Shown here: piece by piece, positions 1 through 18,895 of the stretch | How the letters are laid out: every line of letters begins with the position of its first letter | How positions within the stretch are numbered: position 1 is the first letter of the stretch | NCBI RefSeq assembly: GCF_003991425.1 | Contig: NZ_CP034346.1 | Span: 4,625,501 to 4,689,500 of the forward strand | Source of the DNA: Paenibacillus lutimineralis | GTDB lineage: Bacteria; Bacillota; Bacilli; Paenibacillales; Paenibacillaceae | Reading direction: 5' to 3' | DNA length: 64,000 nt | The notes under the pieces: generated by a model | Database searches by the model: none | What the model was told of the DNA's origin: nothing | Seen by the model: only the letters and a program-made list of their open reading frames with translations | Program-made: the position numbers and the translations under genes

Positions 1-800
1 TCCGCAAAATCCTCGATTATTCTTTGTGTATAACTCCTTTGAAATCCTCTAATTGTGTTAAGTATGTCTTTTATTGAGTAGTCAGGTGACCTTAACAAAA
101 GATCTACTGCAAGTTTCATTCCCGGGTGCTTCACATTATGATCTGAGTAGACCATTGAATTATATCTACCCATCCACTTTCTTAACGTGCCCCATTGCTT
201 CACGCTTTTTATATACGGTGGGTATCCACAATTCATTAATTCATCTATTGCTTTCTGATTATTTTTGTCTTTTGCTTTATTCAATGTCCATTGTAAACAT
301 AGAGCGTCATTATCCGCCCAGTTTATGATTTGAGAAATTCCAATATAAGCACGATAATCTTCAGGGTTCTCGTAAGCTAATCGCAATCCCAGTATAGTTC
401 CCCATGAATAGCCCGCAATATATATTTTATTTTTATTAAATTCTTTCTTTAAGTACCTAACTACTTCCTTAGAATCCAATATGTATTGATCAACACGGAA
501 TGAATCCTTGGATGTATTGCTATTAAATGTTTTTCCTGATCCCCTCTGATCCCAAAAAACTACTGTGTAATGTTTGACCAATTCTTTAGTTGTTGTTGCC
601 ACAACGTAGTCCCTTGAGCGACTCGATACACCAGGTATAGGTAACCCAGGACCTCCATGTAAAATAAGTAATACTGGATTATTAATATCTTCAGTTTGGA
701 TTAATAGATACTGGTCAATTCCACCTATTTCCACTTTCTCTACTTTACTTATCCCTGTCTCTGATATAATAAAATCTTTCTTGGGAAATAGAACTGCCAC
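1..800 (-). CDS. Alpha/beta hydrolase, proline iminopeptidase-like (3' end outside window)
   Basis: Read from a GTG at 800 with a GGAGG-type site just upstream; an ATG two bases further up is in another frame. About 266 residues are visible before the window edge, with no stop. HGGPG at residues 48-52 is the oxyanion-hole motif of prolyl aminopeptidase-like hydrolases, DQRGSGKT follows at 84-91, and GYSWGT at 130-135 carries the probable nucleophile Ser132. The Asp and His of the triad should lie beyond the edge. Family knowledge suggests a cytosolic peptidase or esterase; the substrate is unknown. The gene is AT-rich and begins 57 bp from an attC-like palindrome, so it may be cassette cargo (inference). 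Confidence 0.8.
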   Translation of the reverse strand, partial: MAVLFPKKDFIISETGISKVEKVEIGGIDQYLLIQTEDINNPVLLILHGGPGLPIPGVSSRSRDYVVATTTKELVKHYTVVFWDQRGSGKTFNSNTSKDSFRVDQYILDSKEVVRYLKKEFNKNKIYIAGYSWGTILGLRLAYENPEDYRAYIGISQIINWADNDALCLQWTLNKAKDKNNQKAIDELMNCGYPPYIKSVKQWGTLRKWMGRYNSMVYSDHNVKHPGMKLAVDLLLRSPDYSIKDILNTIRGFQRSYTQRIIEDFA

Positions 801-856
801 ATTATATCTCCTCCTCCTCCACCAATTCTTCTAGTACTTAATAATTTAAATGGTAT

Positions 857-1007
857 TTCACATAACGTTCTTGTATTCACGAAACGCCCCAGCCTTAGAT
901 AGCTCTTATCTTAGGCTGGGGCGTATGTTGTCTGAGCTCCTTCCATGATTATACATCTGACAACGAAAGGGCGATAGCCCTGAAGCGTGAATACGGTGTT
1001 ATGTGAA
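857..1007. repeat. attC-like imperfect palindrome, copy 1
   Basis: Outer arms are TTCACATAAC (857-866) and GTTATGTGAA (998-1007), which are perfect reverse complements. Inner arms are GTATTCACG (873-881) and CGTGAATAC (986-994). The spacers between outer and inner arms are unequal, 6 nt on one side and 3 on the other. Inside lie a long hairpin with GCCCCAGCC/GGCTGGGGC arms (886-922) and a small GGGC-gata-GCCC hairpin near 970. Paired outer R-like boxes carrying AAC/GTT, offset inner boxes and a variable middle are the layout of integron attC sites. It sits between the starts and ends of two co-oriented genes. Confidence 0.6.
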
Positions 1008-1029
1008 GTAATCGACTCCCTTGAATAAC

Positions 1030-1566
1030 CTACATAATTACTTTCCTTAACGAACAGTCATTAAGTGCCTGATTAATATGTTCTTTGTTCGTGTTCATTT
1101 CTATGCCATCAGCAATACTCTCCATTGGAAAAAATGCAAGTGTGATATCCTCTTCCAAATGGAGTAGAACGGCATAATCAAAATGTACTTGTTCTTCACC
1201 AATCAATTCAGTTTTTTGATAGATCTCAATCTTCTCAAGTCTTAAAGCTTGGGGTAGATGATAAGTAAAATGCGGCCCAGAATAACTTCTTTGTTTAATG
1301 TTATATATAATTCCATCAGGTTTATCGCCACATTCAACGATAAGCTTCCAGTAGTCATTGTATACATCTGTCTCCAACCAAACATTCTTAAATATAAGAA
1401 AAAAATCATTATCGATTGAAATGCTGAAACTATAATAAGAACCAATGTATGTAGAATTATAGCGATTCTCGGCTCCAGGTGAATTTACAAATTGTATCTG
1501 TTTTCCTATGCAGTTTCTTAGAATTTCAATCTGTTGCTCTTCTAGCTGAGCAGAGTATTGTTTCAT
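1030..1566 (-). CDS. Hypothetical protein, possible cassette cargo
   Basis: A 178-residue protein of no family I recognise. The start chosen is the ATG at 1566, seven codons inside a longer frame, because GAGGAG lies at good spacing before it. There is no signal peptide, membrane segment or clear catalytic motif. It is rich in Tyr, Ile, Glu and Asp, with alternating hydrophobic stretches that suggest a small beta-rich cytosolic fold, as in immunity or SUKH-like proteins (speculative). It ends 22 bp from one attC-like palindrome and starts 29 bp from another, leaving almost no other DNA. That spacing is what a single-gene mobile cassette would have. Confidence 0.7.
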   Translation of the reverse strand: MKQYSAQLEEQQIEILRNCIGKQIQFVNSPGAENRYNSTYIGSYYSFSISIDNDFFLIFKNVWLETDVYNDYWKLIVECGDKPDGIIYNIKQRSYSGPHFTYHLPQALRLEKIEIYQKTELIGEEQVHFDYAVLLHLEEDITLAFFPMESIADGIEMNTNKEHINQALNDCSLRKVIM

Positions 1567-1594
1567 TATTGCTCCTCTTCGCATTCTCGATTAT

Positions 1595-1777
1595 TTCACA
1601 TAACGTTCATGTGGGTTCCCGAACCCTCACACCTTAAGCCGCGATGCGGTTAGGCGGTGCAGGGTTGTCCGGCTGATTATGCTTCCTGCAAACTGAATTA
1701 TCTCCGTTGTGATTTCGCTGCTTCTGCTTCGGACGGACCAAGGGGCGATAGCCGCAGCGGGAAAACGGTGTTATATG
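1595..1777. repeat. attC-like imperfect palindrome, copy 2
   Basis: The left end TTCACATAACGTTC (1595-1608) is identical to copy 1. The right end, ACGGTGTTATATG (1765-1777), differs by one base from copy 1. Inner arms are TTCCCG (1616-1621) and CGGGAA (1758-1763). The middle differs in length and sequence but again holds a CCTTA...TTAGG hairpin (about 1630-1653) and GGGCGATAGCC before the inner right arm. The ends are conserved and the centre diverged, as among attC sites of one array. From 1778 to 2014 I see no further gene, only AT-rich DNA with short interrupted frames. Confidence 0.6.
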
Positions 1778-2014
1778 TTGTTGACGCCTGCTATGAAATA
1801 CTTTTAAATGTCCATGCTTTTATTTTCTTTCACCACCCGTGAGGATTTACGCCCTTACTCAATTACCATGATTATACCTCCATTTCATAATTATGTAATC
1901 TTATTCCTTCCCATTCTCCTATATCCCTTCCAACCATTCACCTACGCTTAGGTATGGAACTTCTCTTCAATCTTCTTCTCGATCTCCCCTCCGACTTTCT
2001 CTCCATTACTCCCC

Positions 2015-2470
2015 CTAATCCTCCCTATAAATACGGTCGAGGGGGCTTTGGATGTGGCGGAGGACATGGATACCAACCTTCTTCTGAACACGGGAGCGTA
2101 CCACCGCTTCAGTGAACACTTTTTGCAGGGTACGCCTCATGCAGATGTGTCTGCCGATTTTGCCCAGGGAATAACCAAATGGCGGCATCTCCAGCTTAAT
2201 GTATTGCTTTACTAACAGCGACGCAGCTCTTGATAGAAGGGTATGTCGGTCCTTCTTTCCTTTCCCTTGTCGGATCGAGATGATTCCACGCTCCCAGTCA
2301 AGATCCTTTATCCTCAACCGTACCACCTTACTGACACGAAGTCCTGATGAATAAGCCAGATACAACATCGTCCTGTGCCTCAGATTATCCAGTGCTTGAA
2401 GGATGCGAATCACCGCTTGTTCGGAGAGCACGTAAGGAAGTTTCTTCTCCTTTTTGGGACGGAGGTAAGT
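2015..2470 (-). pseudogene. Tyrosine recombinase remnant (IntI/XerC-like), internally deleted
   Basis: The readable frame runs from about 2470 (a GTG at 2431 is the first possible start) and begins at the interdomain linker, RPKKEKKLPYVLS, so the N-terminal DNA-binding domain is missing. The catalytic domain keeps the first Arg in SSGLRVSKVVRL, the KGKKDR beta-strand motif and the HVLRH box. It then jumps straight to a terminal SPLDRIYRED. The segment carrying the last His/Trp and the nucleophilic Tyr is deleted, so the product cannot be active. An SPLD-type tail after the catalytic Tyr is usual in IntI and related Xer proteins. It lies 240 bp from the attC-like elements. Confidence 0.75.
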
Positions 2471-10000: not shown

Positions 10001-10249
10001 ATGAAAATAGAAATTTCTCTCTTCGCCGGACTGGCCGAGCGACTCGGCACATCCCGGATCTCCCTGAACTGCAGCGAATCCAGCCTAACTGCCGAGCGTC
10101 TGAAGAAGCTGCTAAGCGATGCTTATCCCGATGCCAGTCCGCTCATATCCGCAGCAATGGTTGCCGTCAATCAGGAGTACGCAGCAGCCAATTGTCCGAT
10201 CCAGGAGAAGGATGAGATCGCTTTGATTCCGCCTGTATCTGGAGGTTGA
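10001..10249 (+). CDS. moaD: MoaD/ThiS-family sulfur carrier protein
   Basis: An 82-residue ubiquitin-fold protein ending in the essential Gly-Gly (PPVSGG), which is adenylated and thiocarboxylated in molybdopterin synthesis. Its length and start (KIEISLFAGLAERLG) fit MoaD better than ThiS. A GAGGTG lies before the ATG. It stands alone: the partner moaE is not in this window. The stop codon lies inside a perfect 22-bp palindrome. Confidence 0.88.
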   Translation: MKIEISLFAGLAERLGTSRISLNCSESSLTAERLKKLLSDAYPDASPLISAAMVAVNQEYAAANCPIQEKDEIALIPPVSGG

Positions 10250-10265
10250 TGCTTAAGCATCAACC
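10244..10265 (+). terminator. Perfect 22-bp palindrome overlapping the moaD stop
   Basis: The arms GGTTGATGCTT and AAGCATCAACC are perfectly complementary with no loop. Only a weak T tract follows, so it may be a terminator or a stabilising 3' hairpin. Confidence 0.5.
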
Positions 10266-10444
10266 TTCTGTCCTCCCTGTGATCTATTTAACAGGAGAGA
10301 TAATGACTATAAGTCTTCAACACAATCCTGCTCCGGTCATAATCTTCCTCTTATAAATAGCAACAAAGAACTATGATACCGTTGTCAACCCATATATTTC
10401 CTGATATGATTAAAAAAAAGCACAATATAGAGGTGTCATCTTTC

Positions 10445-11491
10445 TTGAAGGTACATATTATGGATCTTAACCCTGGAGACAAGCTTCAGACCGACGTATT
10501 CAATCATTTTGGCGTACTGGTTCTACAGAAAGAGAAGGAACTGTCCAGCGAGGCCATCGTGAAGTTGATGCAGCACGGGATCGATTATATTGATATCATC
10601 CCTCATACCATTGACGTCATCGTGCCGACCGCCTCAGTTACTCCGCAGTTCATCCAGAAGATTCAGCCTGTGTTTAACGAAGCGATTGACGGATTTGAAG
10701 CAATATTCCTGGAAGCGCTGGCAACCGGCAATTTCGACAATTCTCAAGTAGACCAACTGCTTGAACCCATGGTCGAACAGCTCGATGACCAGAAGGATGT
10801 CGTATCTCTGCTTCTGCTGCTTGGCAATAATGATAATTATACATATAATCATTCTTTGCAGGTTGGAATGCTATCCTATTATATCGCTTCCTGGTTAGGA
10901 TATTCAAAGGAAGATGCCTATAAAGTTGGCAAAGCTGGTTACTTGATCGATATCGGGAAGTGTAAGATATCGGAGGATATCTTATTCAAACCTGGTAAGT
11001 TGACACCTGAGGAATTTGAGGAGATCAAGCGACACACACAATACGGGTATGAGATTATTATGAATTCTACCGGGGACGAGCTATCGGCCCTCATCGCTTT
11101 GCAGCATCATGAACGTGATGATGGTAGCGGTTATCCACGCGGACTGACGGATAAGGAGATCCACCCATACGCCAAGATCACTGCAGTGGCGGACGTCTAC
11201 ACAGCAATGACCTCTAACCGTATCTATCAATCGAAGCAGGAGCTATTCACCGTACTCAAAGAATTGAATAATATGAGCTTTGGCAAATTAAGTCCTGAGC
11301 CTACCCAGGTGTTGATTAGCCATCTGCTACCGAACTTTATCGGTAAGAAAGTACTGCTGAGTTCCGGCGAAGTCGGGGCGATTATCATGACGAACCCATC
11401 CGACTTCTTCCGCCCGCTAATCCGTACAGAATCGCGCTTTATCGATTTGTCCAGGGAACGCGAGCTTACGATTACTGAGATTTATATGTAA
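10445..11491 (+). CDS. HD-GYP domain protein with a degenerate HD motif
   Basis: A 348-residue paralog of the 7296-8393 protein. The TTG at 10445 was chosen because AGAGGTG precedes it and the N-terminus then aligns with the paralog; an ATG at 10373 would add 24 unaligned residues. His136, HHE (221-223) and the GYP motif are kept. At position 168 the catalytic motif reads IDIGK instead of HDIGK, so the His metal ligand is lost. The protein may bind c-di-GMP or partners without hydrolysing it, or have low activity (inference). The sequence is otherwise intact, which argues for a retained function. Confidence 0.88.
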   Translation: MKVHIMDLNPGDKLQTDVFNHFGVLVLQKEKELSSEAIVKLMQHGIDYIDIIPHTIDVIVPTASVTPQFIQKIQPVFNEAIDGFEAIFLEALATGNFDNSQVDQLLEPMVEQLDDQKDVVSLLLLLGNNDNYTYNHSLQVGMLSYYIASWLGYSKEDAYKVGKAGYLIDIGKCKISEDILFKPGKLTPEEFEEIKRHTQYGYEIIMNSTGDELSALIALQHHERDDGSGYPRGLTDKEIHPYAKITAVADVYTAMTSNRIYQSKQELFTVLKELNNMSFGKLSPEPTQVLISHLLPNFIGKKVLLSSGEVGAIIMTNPSDFFRPLIRTESRFIDLSRERELTITEIYM

Positions 11492-18115: not shown

Positions 18116-18895
18116 TTAGGCTTCTTGACCGACAGTTTCATCCGTAATTCCAAGTTCTTCTTTGACCCAATCATATCCGTCGCGTTCCAGACGTTCTGCC
18201 AGCTCAGGGCCACCCGATTTAACGATTCGACCTTGCATCATTACGTGAACGACATCCGGTTTAATATAGTTGAGCAGACGTTGATAGTGAGTAATGATCA
18301 GGAATCCACGATCTTCATCACGCATGCTATTCACACCGTTAGCTACGATACGCAATGCGTCGATATCCAGACCAGAGTCGATCTCGTCCAAAATGACAAG
18401 CTTCGACTCAATCATCATCATTTGCAAAATTTCGTTCCGTTTCTTCTCCCCGCCGGAGAATCCTTCATTTAAATAACGGTGAGCGAATTCAGGATTCATC
18501 TCGAGCTCCTTCATTTTGCTCTCCATTTGACGGATGAATTTGATCAGTGAGATTTCATTGCCCTCTTCACGGCGTGCGTTGATTGCACTGCGCAAGAAGT
18601 CAGAGTTCGTTACACCAGCAATTTCGCTTGGATATTGCATTGCCAGGAACAGACCCGCGCGAGCACGTTCGTCCACGGCCATTTCCAACACATCTTCACC
18701 ATTCAAGCTCACTGCACCGTCAGTTACTTCATATTTAGGATGTCCCATTAATGCGGAAGCGAGCGTACTTTTACCTGTTCCGTTGGGGCCCATGATAGCA
18801 TGGATTTCTCCGCCCTTTATTTCAAGGTCGATTCCCTTGAGAATTTCCTTTCCTTCAATGGTCGCCTTCAGACCTTCAACAACGAAATGTGTCAT
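18116..18895 (-). CDS. sufC: Fe-S assembly ATPase SufC
   Basis: A 259-residue ABC-type ATPase. Walker A is GPNGTGKST, the signature is FSGGEKKRNEI, Walker B ends in VILDEIDSGLD, and the switch His is in IITHYQRLL. It drives conformational change in SufBD. It is the first gene of sufCDSUB; GGAGGG precedes the ATG. Confidence 0.97.
   Translation of the reverse strand: MTHFVVEGLKATIEGKEILKGIDLEIKGGEIHAIMGPNGTGKSTLASALMGHPKYEVTDGAVSLNGEDVLEMAVDERARAGLFLAMQYPSEIAGVTNSDFLRSAINARREEGNEISLIKFIRQMESKMKELEMNPEFAHRYLNEGFSGGEKKRNEILQMMMIESKLVILDEIDSGLDIDALRIVANGVNSMRDEDRGFLIITHYQRLLNYIKPDVVHVMMQGRIVKSGGPELAERLERDGYDWVKEELGITDETVGQEA

Follow-up and report, generated by a model that had tools for sequence, protein, structure and literature searches.

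In this study, we analyzed a window of 64,000 nt from Paenibacillus lutimineralis (NZ_CP034346.1, positions 4,625,501-4,689,500, forward strand), which contains the recombinase-proximal edge of a long integron-like array. Our analyses suggested, with a probability of about 0.88, that this edge belongs to an array of a lineage standing beside the classical integrons. The system works like an integron and falls outside the definition by IntI, so it is a variant beside the integron family and not a member of it. Judged by sequence, intact versions are present in many Paenibacillaceae, in other Bacillota and in metagenome-assembled genomes (MAGs) labelled as other phyla.

In the proposed mechanism, a tyrosine recombinase encoded upstream of the array, in the same direction, would recognize the folded bottom strand of attC-like sites (~65-220 nt) and cut at G^TTA, freeing single-gene cassettes as circles. 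The circles would insert at a fixed attI site just downstream of the recombinase gene, and a cassette promoter (Pc) at attI could read into the array. In P. lutimineralis the recombinase and part of attI would since have decayed. We infer from the comparisons below that the clade recombinase is the enzyme, that its substrate is single-stranded, that the promoter works and that recombination itself takes place.

attC-like sites and the array of P. lutimineralis

An earlier note, made from the letters of the window, had described an integron-like cassette array in a Firmicute, built on two palindromes with conserved ends. The palindromes are real (859-1005 and 1597-1777, hereafter sites 1 and 2) and extend to about 30 sites, and the array is supported by these sites, by the sharing of cassettes and by the recombinase genes beside the arrays of relatives. 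On the minus strand both sites are laid out as R''(NNNNTAAC)-spacer-L''-variable middle-L'-longer spacer-R'(GTTANNNN), a structure and orientation established by comparing sequences. The plus-strand boxes of site 1 are CACATAAC (859-866), GTATTCACG (873-881), CGTGAATAC (986-994) and GTTATGTG (998-1005), with CACATAAC/GTTATGTG as R''/R' and GTATTCACG/CGTGAATAC as the L boxes; site 2 ends in CACATAAC (1597-1604) and GTTATATG (1770-1777). The inner spacers of site 1 are unequal, as had been noticed, with 6 and 3 nt on the plus strand (3 then 6 in the top-strand orientation of the site).

The earlier note had named folding as a check. Site 1 folded with a stability far above that of shuffled sequences (z -10.8 on the plus strand and -8.7 on the minus strand), and site 2 did not clearly do so (z -1.25 and -1.77 on the two strands), so folding alone is insufficient for site 2, which is supported by a covariance model. 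This model, R1, was built from 25 aligned sites of ~148 nt beside recombinases of the lineage (the clade) in other genomes and includes none from P. lutimineralis. Its top match in the 6.5-Mb genome was site 1 (164.7 bits, approximate E 3.8e-37), and site 2 scored 45.3 bits (approximate genome-wide E 2.5e-7); the model search that the earlier note had proposed thus recovered both. In the R and L stems as specified, 91.1% of the cells were paired, compared with 20-42% in slid structures, and 31 cells of these stems carried double changes against a shuffled mean of 10.8. RNAalifold showed pair-keeping double changes in 19 of 23 predicted pairs. Neither element matched an Rfam family at gathering thresholds, an outcome against the refutation by a known transposon end that the earlier note had named, although transposon ends as such were not searched for. 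A pattern search with up to two mismatches gave mostly noise outside the array (94 forward and 84 reverse matches, against 65 and 77 with the reversed pattern) and was replaced by half-site and model searches.

In a 46.5-kb region, all the halves found by the half-site scan, 23 left and 29 right, lay on the same strand. R1 delimited a compact array of ~27 kb (genome 4599773-4627277) with 30 minus-strand sites at E<=0.1 and 23 at E<=1e-4. All 30 are full-length matches in one orientation, the palindromes of the window being the last two, and two partial plus-strand matches in the array cover the inner hairpin only of two counted sites. Genome-wide, R1 gave 33 matches at E<=1e-4, of which 28 (three partial) lie on the minus strand at 4556352-4627277; the others are four in a plus-strand cluster near 1.33 Mb and one partial inner-hairpin match on the opposite strand. 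This second attC-like cluster spans genome 1325153-1335278, and a lone match lies near 1432993.

The profile of intact clade recombinases had no match at E<=1e-60 in the P. lutimineralis genome. Since the recombinase beside the array is a remnant and no other copy is present at this threshold, the array is probably frozen and resembles a cluster of attC sites lacking integron-integrases (CALIN).

Recombinase-linked sites, attI and cassettes in relatives

We examined 80 named recombinase loci, kept out of at least 565 confirmed relatives found in a genome scan, with a single symmetric site detector, which favored neither orientation. The results showed 138 sites in 374,551 bp downstream of the recombinase and five in 641,652 bp upstream. 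Of the 48 loci with 1.5 kb or more of DNA downstream, 40 had at least one site (the 32 of 80 loci below 1.5 kb were dropped). As a control, we took the surroundings of 15 recombinases from the same order but outside the clade; these 300 kb contained three sites, one of them with a 3-nt spacer difference. The inner spacers differed by 3 nt in 95 and by 4 nt in 23 of the downstream sites, and by neither value in any of the five upstream ones. Among 39 Paenibacillus genomes, R1 sites were found in 35 (0-56 per genome), and in 16 of the 17 with a recombinase match at E<=1e-60.

By sequence, the lineage has a fixed entry point beside the recombinase gene, as expected of attI. In a first family (P. 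pabuli group), ~130 nt 3' of the recombinase are conserved in 11 loci of 10 genomes. This conservation stops at ...ATTAGATG|TTA (GATG|TTA) and is followed by different sequence in each locus, a divergence point established by comparison. In a second family, the stretch conserved in six closer relatives of P. lutimineralis runs to ...GGAG|TTA; five of them are informative (one contig ends there). The window retains 29 nt of the second platform, 93% identical to four relatives (one gapped), with weaker or shorter matches to two further relatives; the crossover half of attI is not recognizable in the window. Within the remnant, ATTACA-17-TATAAT points into the array and is present also at a relative's locus (L064). 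It is a candidate Pc, conservation being its one argument: the window holds 3 promoter-like matches and shuffled sequences 4.0. Besides its longer recombinase match, P. xylanivorans has a shorter second one (query residues 139-369), and the same attI stretch follows each.

For the analysis of cassettes, sites were kept by their spacer difference (2-4 nt for ends and length counts, 3-4 nt for sharing, 2-5 nt outside Paenibacillaceae), and cassettes above 2500 nt (3000 nt outside Paenibacillaceae) were dropped. The 192 cassettes between adjoining sites had a median length of 702 bp; their longest open reading frame (ORF) followed the direction of the recombinase in 154 and opposed it in 24, and 14 had none of at least 60 aa. 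In 191 cassettes, the start agreed with the reverse complement of the cassette's own end at 9.99 of 14 positions beyond GTTA, whereas the two sides of one site agreed at 6.04 and shuffled partners at 5.49. The corresponding values outside Paenibacillaceae (21 cassettes of 11 loci) were 9.95, 5.43 and 5.46. A cassette closing as a circle at G^TT would bring these two ends together. One end position agreed in just 3%; most of the rows shown have A there in the start and G in the end, so that the top strand has a C.A mismatch and the bottom strand a T.G wobble. When folded with DNA parameters, the bottom strand was the more stable one in 190 and the top strand in 53 of 249 sites in array form, and in 204 and 43, respectively, in circular form.

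Cassette sharing was assessed among 248 cassettes, a shared pair being two cassettes of different arrays with an identity of 65% or more across 60% or more of the shorter one. We identified 40 homologous pairs between arrays of different genomes, which include related cassette families and hence are not independent. None of the 37 testable pairs had homologous left or right neighbors (three pairs were untestable). To read cassette ends, we picked four of the 40 pairs. Three of them had an identity of 0.88-0.99 inside, which dropped to 0.30-0.50 beyond G^TTA at either side, and these homology breaks suggest the position of the crossover; one pair agreed over 530 of 530 nt at 99%, with an outside identity of 0.30 and 0.35. 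The fourth kept 0.95 upstream of the cassette, because two similar sites stand there, and had 0.42 downstream. One cassette stands at attI in P. taichungensis and after an attC-like site in Paenibacillus sp. PAMC 26794. Ends of high-scoring segment pairs lay near site edges at either end in 25 of 40 cases compared with 10 of 40 at random, a weaker test because the sites themselves are alike. Cassette boundaries and the sharing of single cassettes, both established by sequence comparison, indicate that cassettes move as units. With 40 shared pairs and no homologous neighbors in those testable, the elements are not isolated repeats amid unchanging genes, the case that the earlier note had named as a refutation.

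Integron cassettes are typically varied in cargo. Among the 70 cassette proteins scanned, out of 197 eligible ORFs of other arrays, no Pfam family was common to more than three. Single proteins of this set matched models of anti-phage defence (PtuA/GajA-type ATPase, NucC and AriA).

The recombinase lineage and the features of the window

The recombinase remnant of the window has lost its N-terminal part and the stretch after HxLRH with the catalytic tyrosine. The intact family comprised nine open members of 351-381 aa from nine genomes (seven Paenibacillus and two of other families of the order), whose profile gave the matches at E<=1e-60 used here. Such matches occurred in 17 of 40 Paenibacillus genomes, not all of them full-length or stop-free. 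In a sample of the phylum, 37 of 398 genomes had profile matches, and the weaker ones (under ~330 bits) mostly lacked the N-terminal part. The 80 loci, kept from the at least 565 relatives, came chiefly from Paenibacillus, Saccharibacillus and Cohnella, then from Clostridium, Acetivibrio, Alkaliphilus and Halanaerobium, and also from MAGs labelled Nitrospirota, Bacteroidota, Gemmatimonadota and archaea. The earlier note had placed an IntI/Xer-type remnant beside the array and had asked for an intact gene nearby: the recombinase is there and is no canonical IntI, with the additional domain absent and TIGR02249 below its cut-off, and intact genes stand near the arrays of relatives, whereas P. 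lutimineralis keeps the remnant and has no match at E<=1e-60.

The distance from K(D)R to HxLRH was 55-61 residues in 66 of the 80 clade loci (14 unmeasurable by motif) and 58-62 in 105 of 120 database relatives of the clade, compared with 99-100 in 103 of 120 IntI (one at 114, 16 unmeasurable). The IntI values come from the first motif, the wider motif used on the 80 clade loci having failed in 118 of 120 IntI. The short distance indicates that the ~40-residue additional domain of IntI is absent from the clade. This domain has been used to recognize intI (PMC2426708, as far as that source was available), and in the IntI structure it contacts the second extrahelical base of attC (according to the accessible part of PMC3053210). 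All five clade proteins tested scored 189-210 bits with TIGR02249, below the cut-off of 265, and matched it in two stretches. With NF040815 they scored 206-224 bits against a cut-off of 220, two of the five lying above it.

Two trees grouped the clade and IntI apart from Xer, with support of 98/93 and 100/99. The clade was separate from the 12 IntI sampled (clade 98/98, IntI 100/100; 91/91 and 100/99 in the rebuilt tree). The IntI rows came from one query, and deep IntI branches and XerA were absent, so a sister position to IntI refers to the IntI sampled. Long Xer branches in the first tree were the reason for rebuilding it with XerC/XerD-like rows; long-branch warnings remain. An AlphaFold2 model of the clade recombinase (mean predicted local distance difference test score 85.9, predicted template modelling score 0.60) had IntI4 2a3v as its first Foldseek match. 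Taken together, the recombinase groups beside the IntI sampled, is no canonical IntI, and represents what is probably a sister lineage of the integrons.

The clade carries an extra N-terminal domain of ~75 residues with conserved tryptophans and the motif GR.W.P..K.W..P. Three of eight pieces of this domain had sub-threshold Pfam matches to HARP (PF07443; E 0.011, 0.037 and 0.15), and Foldseek gave nothing significant for it, the best match being the N-terminal half of XPB (E 0.065). A LexA box 5' of the recombinase was found in only 1 of 78 loci, which speaks against a general SOS link; the single LexA-type box, CGAACGTATGTTCG, is perfect and lies ~20 nt upstream of the recombinase ORF at one locus (L093). 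Phage records with a match numbered 915; the matches listed among them had 29.5-34.4% identity and included no strong clade member. A recombinase of 38% identity that includes the N-terminal part is encoded on two Chryseobacterium plasmids, which have alike genes upstream of it and different genes just downstream. Their mutual homology breaks near AAGTT, possibly a mobile version in Bacteroidota, and the strict site detector found no array on them.

The features of the window are collected in Table 1. As the earlier note had read it, one gene with little spare DNA lies between the palindromes, in cassette 1, and a second gene abuts the first copy, beginning at 800 and adjoining site 1. The length of cassette 1, 738 nt, equals the distance between the left ends of the two palindromes, and its ends are complementary over 18 nt at 94% (998-1015 with 1587-1604). 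The cargo ORF of cassette 1 had no Pfam or NCBIfam match. Over the whole array of P. lutimineralis, the cargo includes two GNAT acetyltransferases, a NUDIX hydrolase, alpha/beta hydrolases, a FabA-like protein, a CHAP protein, a kinase-like protein with an APH match, and unknowns. Two 129-aa ORFs in separate cassettes, at 18237-18623 and 10186-10572 on the minus strand of locus L062, are near-alike over their first 60 residues, as if a cassette had been duplicated.

Table 1. Features at the array edge, in window positions
Feature	Position	Strand	Basis
attC-like site 1, closing cassette 1	859..1005	-	covariance model R1 and fold
attC-like site 2, nearest to the recombinase remnant	1597..1777	-	covariance model R1
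cassette 1, 738 nt, bounded by the putative G^TT crossovers of sites 2 and 1	866..1603	-	sequence, inverted repeat, boundary rule from relatives
cassette 1 cargo ORF, 184 aa when read from its first start codon (alternative ATG at 1566)	1030..1584	-	ORF between both sites
cassette 2, partial, extends left beyond the window	1..865	-	next site at genome 4625133-4625237 (weak, E 0.008)
cargo gene of cassette 2, alpha/beta hydrolase, leaves the window; 345 aa in the genome	3..800	-	PF00561, E 7.9e-14
attI platform remnant with candidate Pc ATTACA-17-TATAAT toward the array	1871..1899	-	29 columns, 93% identical to the attI region of four relatives
decayed tyrosine recombinase of the integron-like clade	2015..2431	-	PF00589, E 8.4e-20; 57% identity over 128 aa to the P. 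phocaensis recombinase

Alternative explanations and relation to known systems

The sites have the R/L layout and GTT core of attC and would suit a canonical integron, recently acquired with its IntI and additional domain, the neighboring recombinase being unrelated. We consider this very improbable: no P. lutimineralis match passes the TIGR02249 cut-off, the array-side recombinases show the short K(D)R-HxLRH distance in 66 of 80 loci against 99-100 residues in IntI, and the association of recombinase and sites in 40 of 48 loci speaks against an unrelated gene. Slightly less credible still is a dispersed palindromic repeat, such as a miniature inverted-repeat transposable element, a repetitive extragenic palindrome or a single-strand transposon end, that came to lie between genes by chance. 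The sites are palindromic with a variable middle, and 35 of 39 genomes of the genus have them, among these some with no recombinase match, all as such a repeat would have it. Against it, the sites of the P. lutimineralis genome are clustered, with full-length matches in one orientation per cluster, no Rfam family was matched, and the unit common to genomes is a gene plus one site rather than the palindrome; complementarity likewise joins the two flanks of a gene and not both sides of a single palindrome. The least probable reading of all is that the repeats form an ordinary hot spot for homologous recombination and that a phage-type integrase is a mere passenger. RecA can exchange blocks through repeats alone, yet the homology beside the recombinase ends at one base in 11 loci, and three of the four pairs read lose their identity on both sides at G^TTA. 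The many same-oriented sites flanking shared genes speak against a dif-like resolution site of the Xer/dif kind.

Several observations weigh against an integron-like array of a lineage beside the integrons. Some weak sites of the P. lutimineralis array have degenerate R boxes, and the number of further pair types in the specified R and L stems was barely above that of shuffles. VIA-align with the recombinase model ranked XerA chains higher. Sites also occurred in 19 of 22 Paenibacillus genomes without a recombinase match at E<=1e-60, and two genomes (G059 and G065) had a strong recombinase match and no R1 match. Outside the genus R1 was nearly silent, with any match in 8 of 101 genomes of the phylum; more than two matches were seen in the phylum sample only in P. 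lutimineralis and in one recombinase-positive family member (G120). Sites without recombinase may reflect frequent loss of the recombinase, and a loose association would give the same pattern.

A wider proposal is tentative, and we regard it as rather less than an even chance: that the clade is a second, deeply separate integron lineage across Bacillota and other phyla, which would bind folded single-stranded attC without the IntI additional domain. The strand might then be read from the 3-4 nt spacer asymmetry and from the bottom-strand G.T wobble in the extended outer arms, with a HARP-like N-terminal domain, of the kind found in fork-annealing proteins, in place of the additional domain. 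Such a lineage could represent a stage between Xer and IntI.

Integrons are described as extremely rare in Firmicutes: in the accessible part of the IntegronFinder 2.0 report (PMC9024848), that of Limnochorda pilosa is named as the sole complete one, beside few CALIN, and some incompatibility of such clades with integrons is suggested. Firmicutes are listed among the phyla with integrons, without detail in the portion seen, in PMC8618304. We found no report of this lineage or of such Paenibacillus arrays in the open-access literature, a search that misses most subscription papers and bioRxiv preprints. With a strong recombinase match in 17 of 40 and sites in 35 of 39 genomes of the genus, the integron gap of Firmicutes may be partly a detection gap, the IntI-based criterion missing this lineage. 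The lineage opens a direct test of the purpose of the IntI additional domain and of the origin of integrons from Xer-like recombinases, and it reveals in Gram-positive bacteria a large pool of mobile single-gene cassettes, as yet uncharted.

Among known systems, the chromosomal integrons of Treponema are alike in that the integrase is co-oriented with the cassettes; they carry intI, as described in the available part of PMC3607928, and are set apart by this description from the clade, which lacks the additional domain. The P. lutimineralis array, with 30 sites and no recombinase match at E<=1e-60, qualifies as CALIN, but unlike CALIN its edge keeps recognizable remnants of recombinase and attI. 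XerA-type recombinases (NF040815; PDB 5hxy, 4a8e) differ in that the clade recombinases are extended at the N terminus and stand by an array of cassettes with attI; the clade groups with IntI and not with the Xer sampled, in trees from which XerA was absent. The closest likeness is to sedentary chromosomal integrons, with which the system has in common a recombinase gene, a fixed entry site, cassettes of ~0.7 kb with one gene each and mostly in one orientation, attC-like R and L boxes, the GTT break, a better-folding bottom strand and cassettes common to genomes. In contrast to them, the clade recombinase is without the IntI additional domain and bears ~75 extra residues as an N-terminal domain, and most clade sites show a spacer asymmetry of 3-4 nt. 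To our knowledge, canonical integron cassettes lack the extended end complementarity seen here, where the cassette ends of the clade are complementary well past the R box and the near-constant mismatch would be a G.T wobble on the bottom strand.
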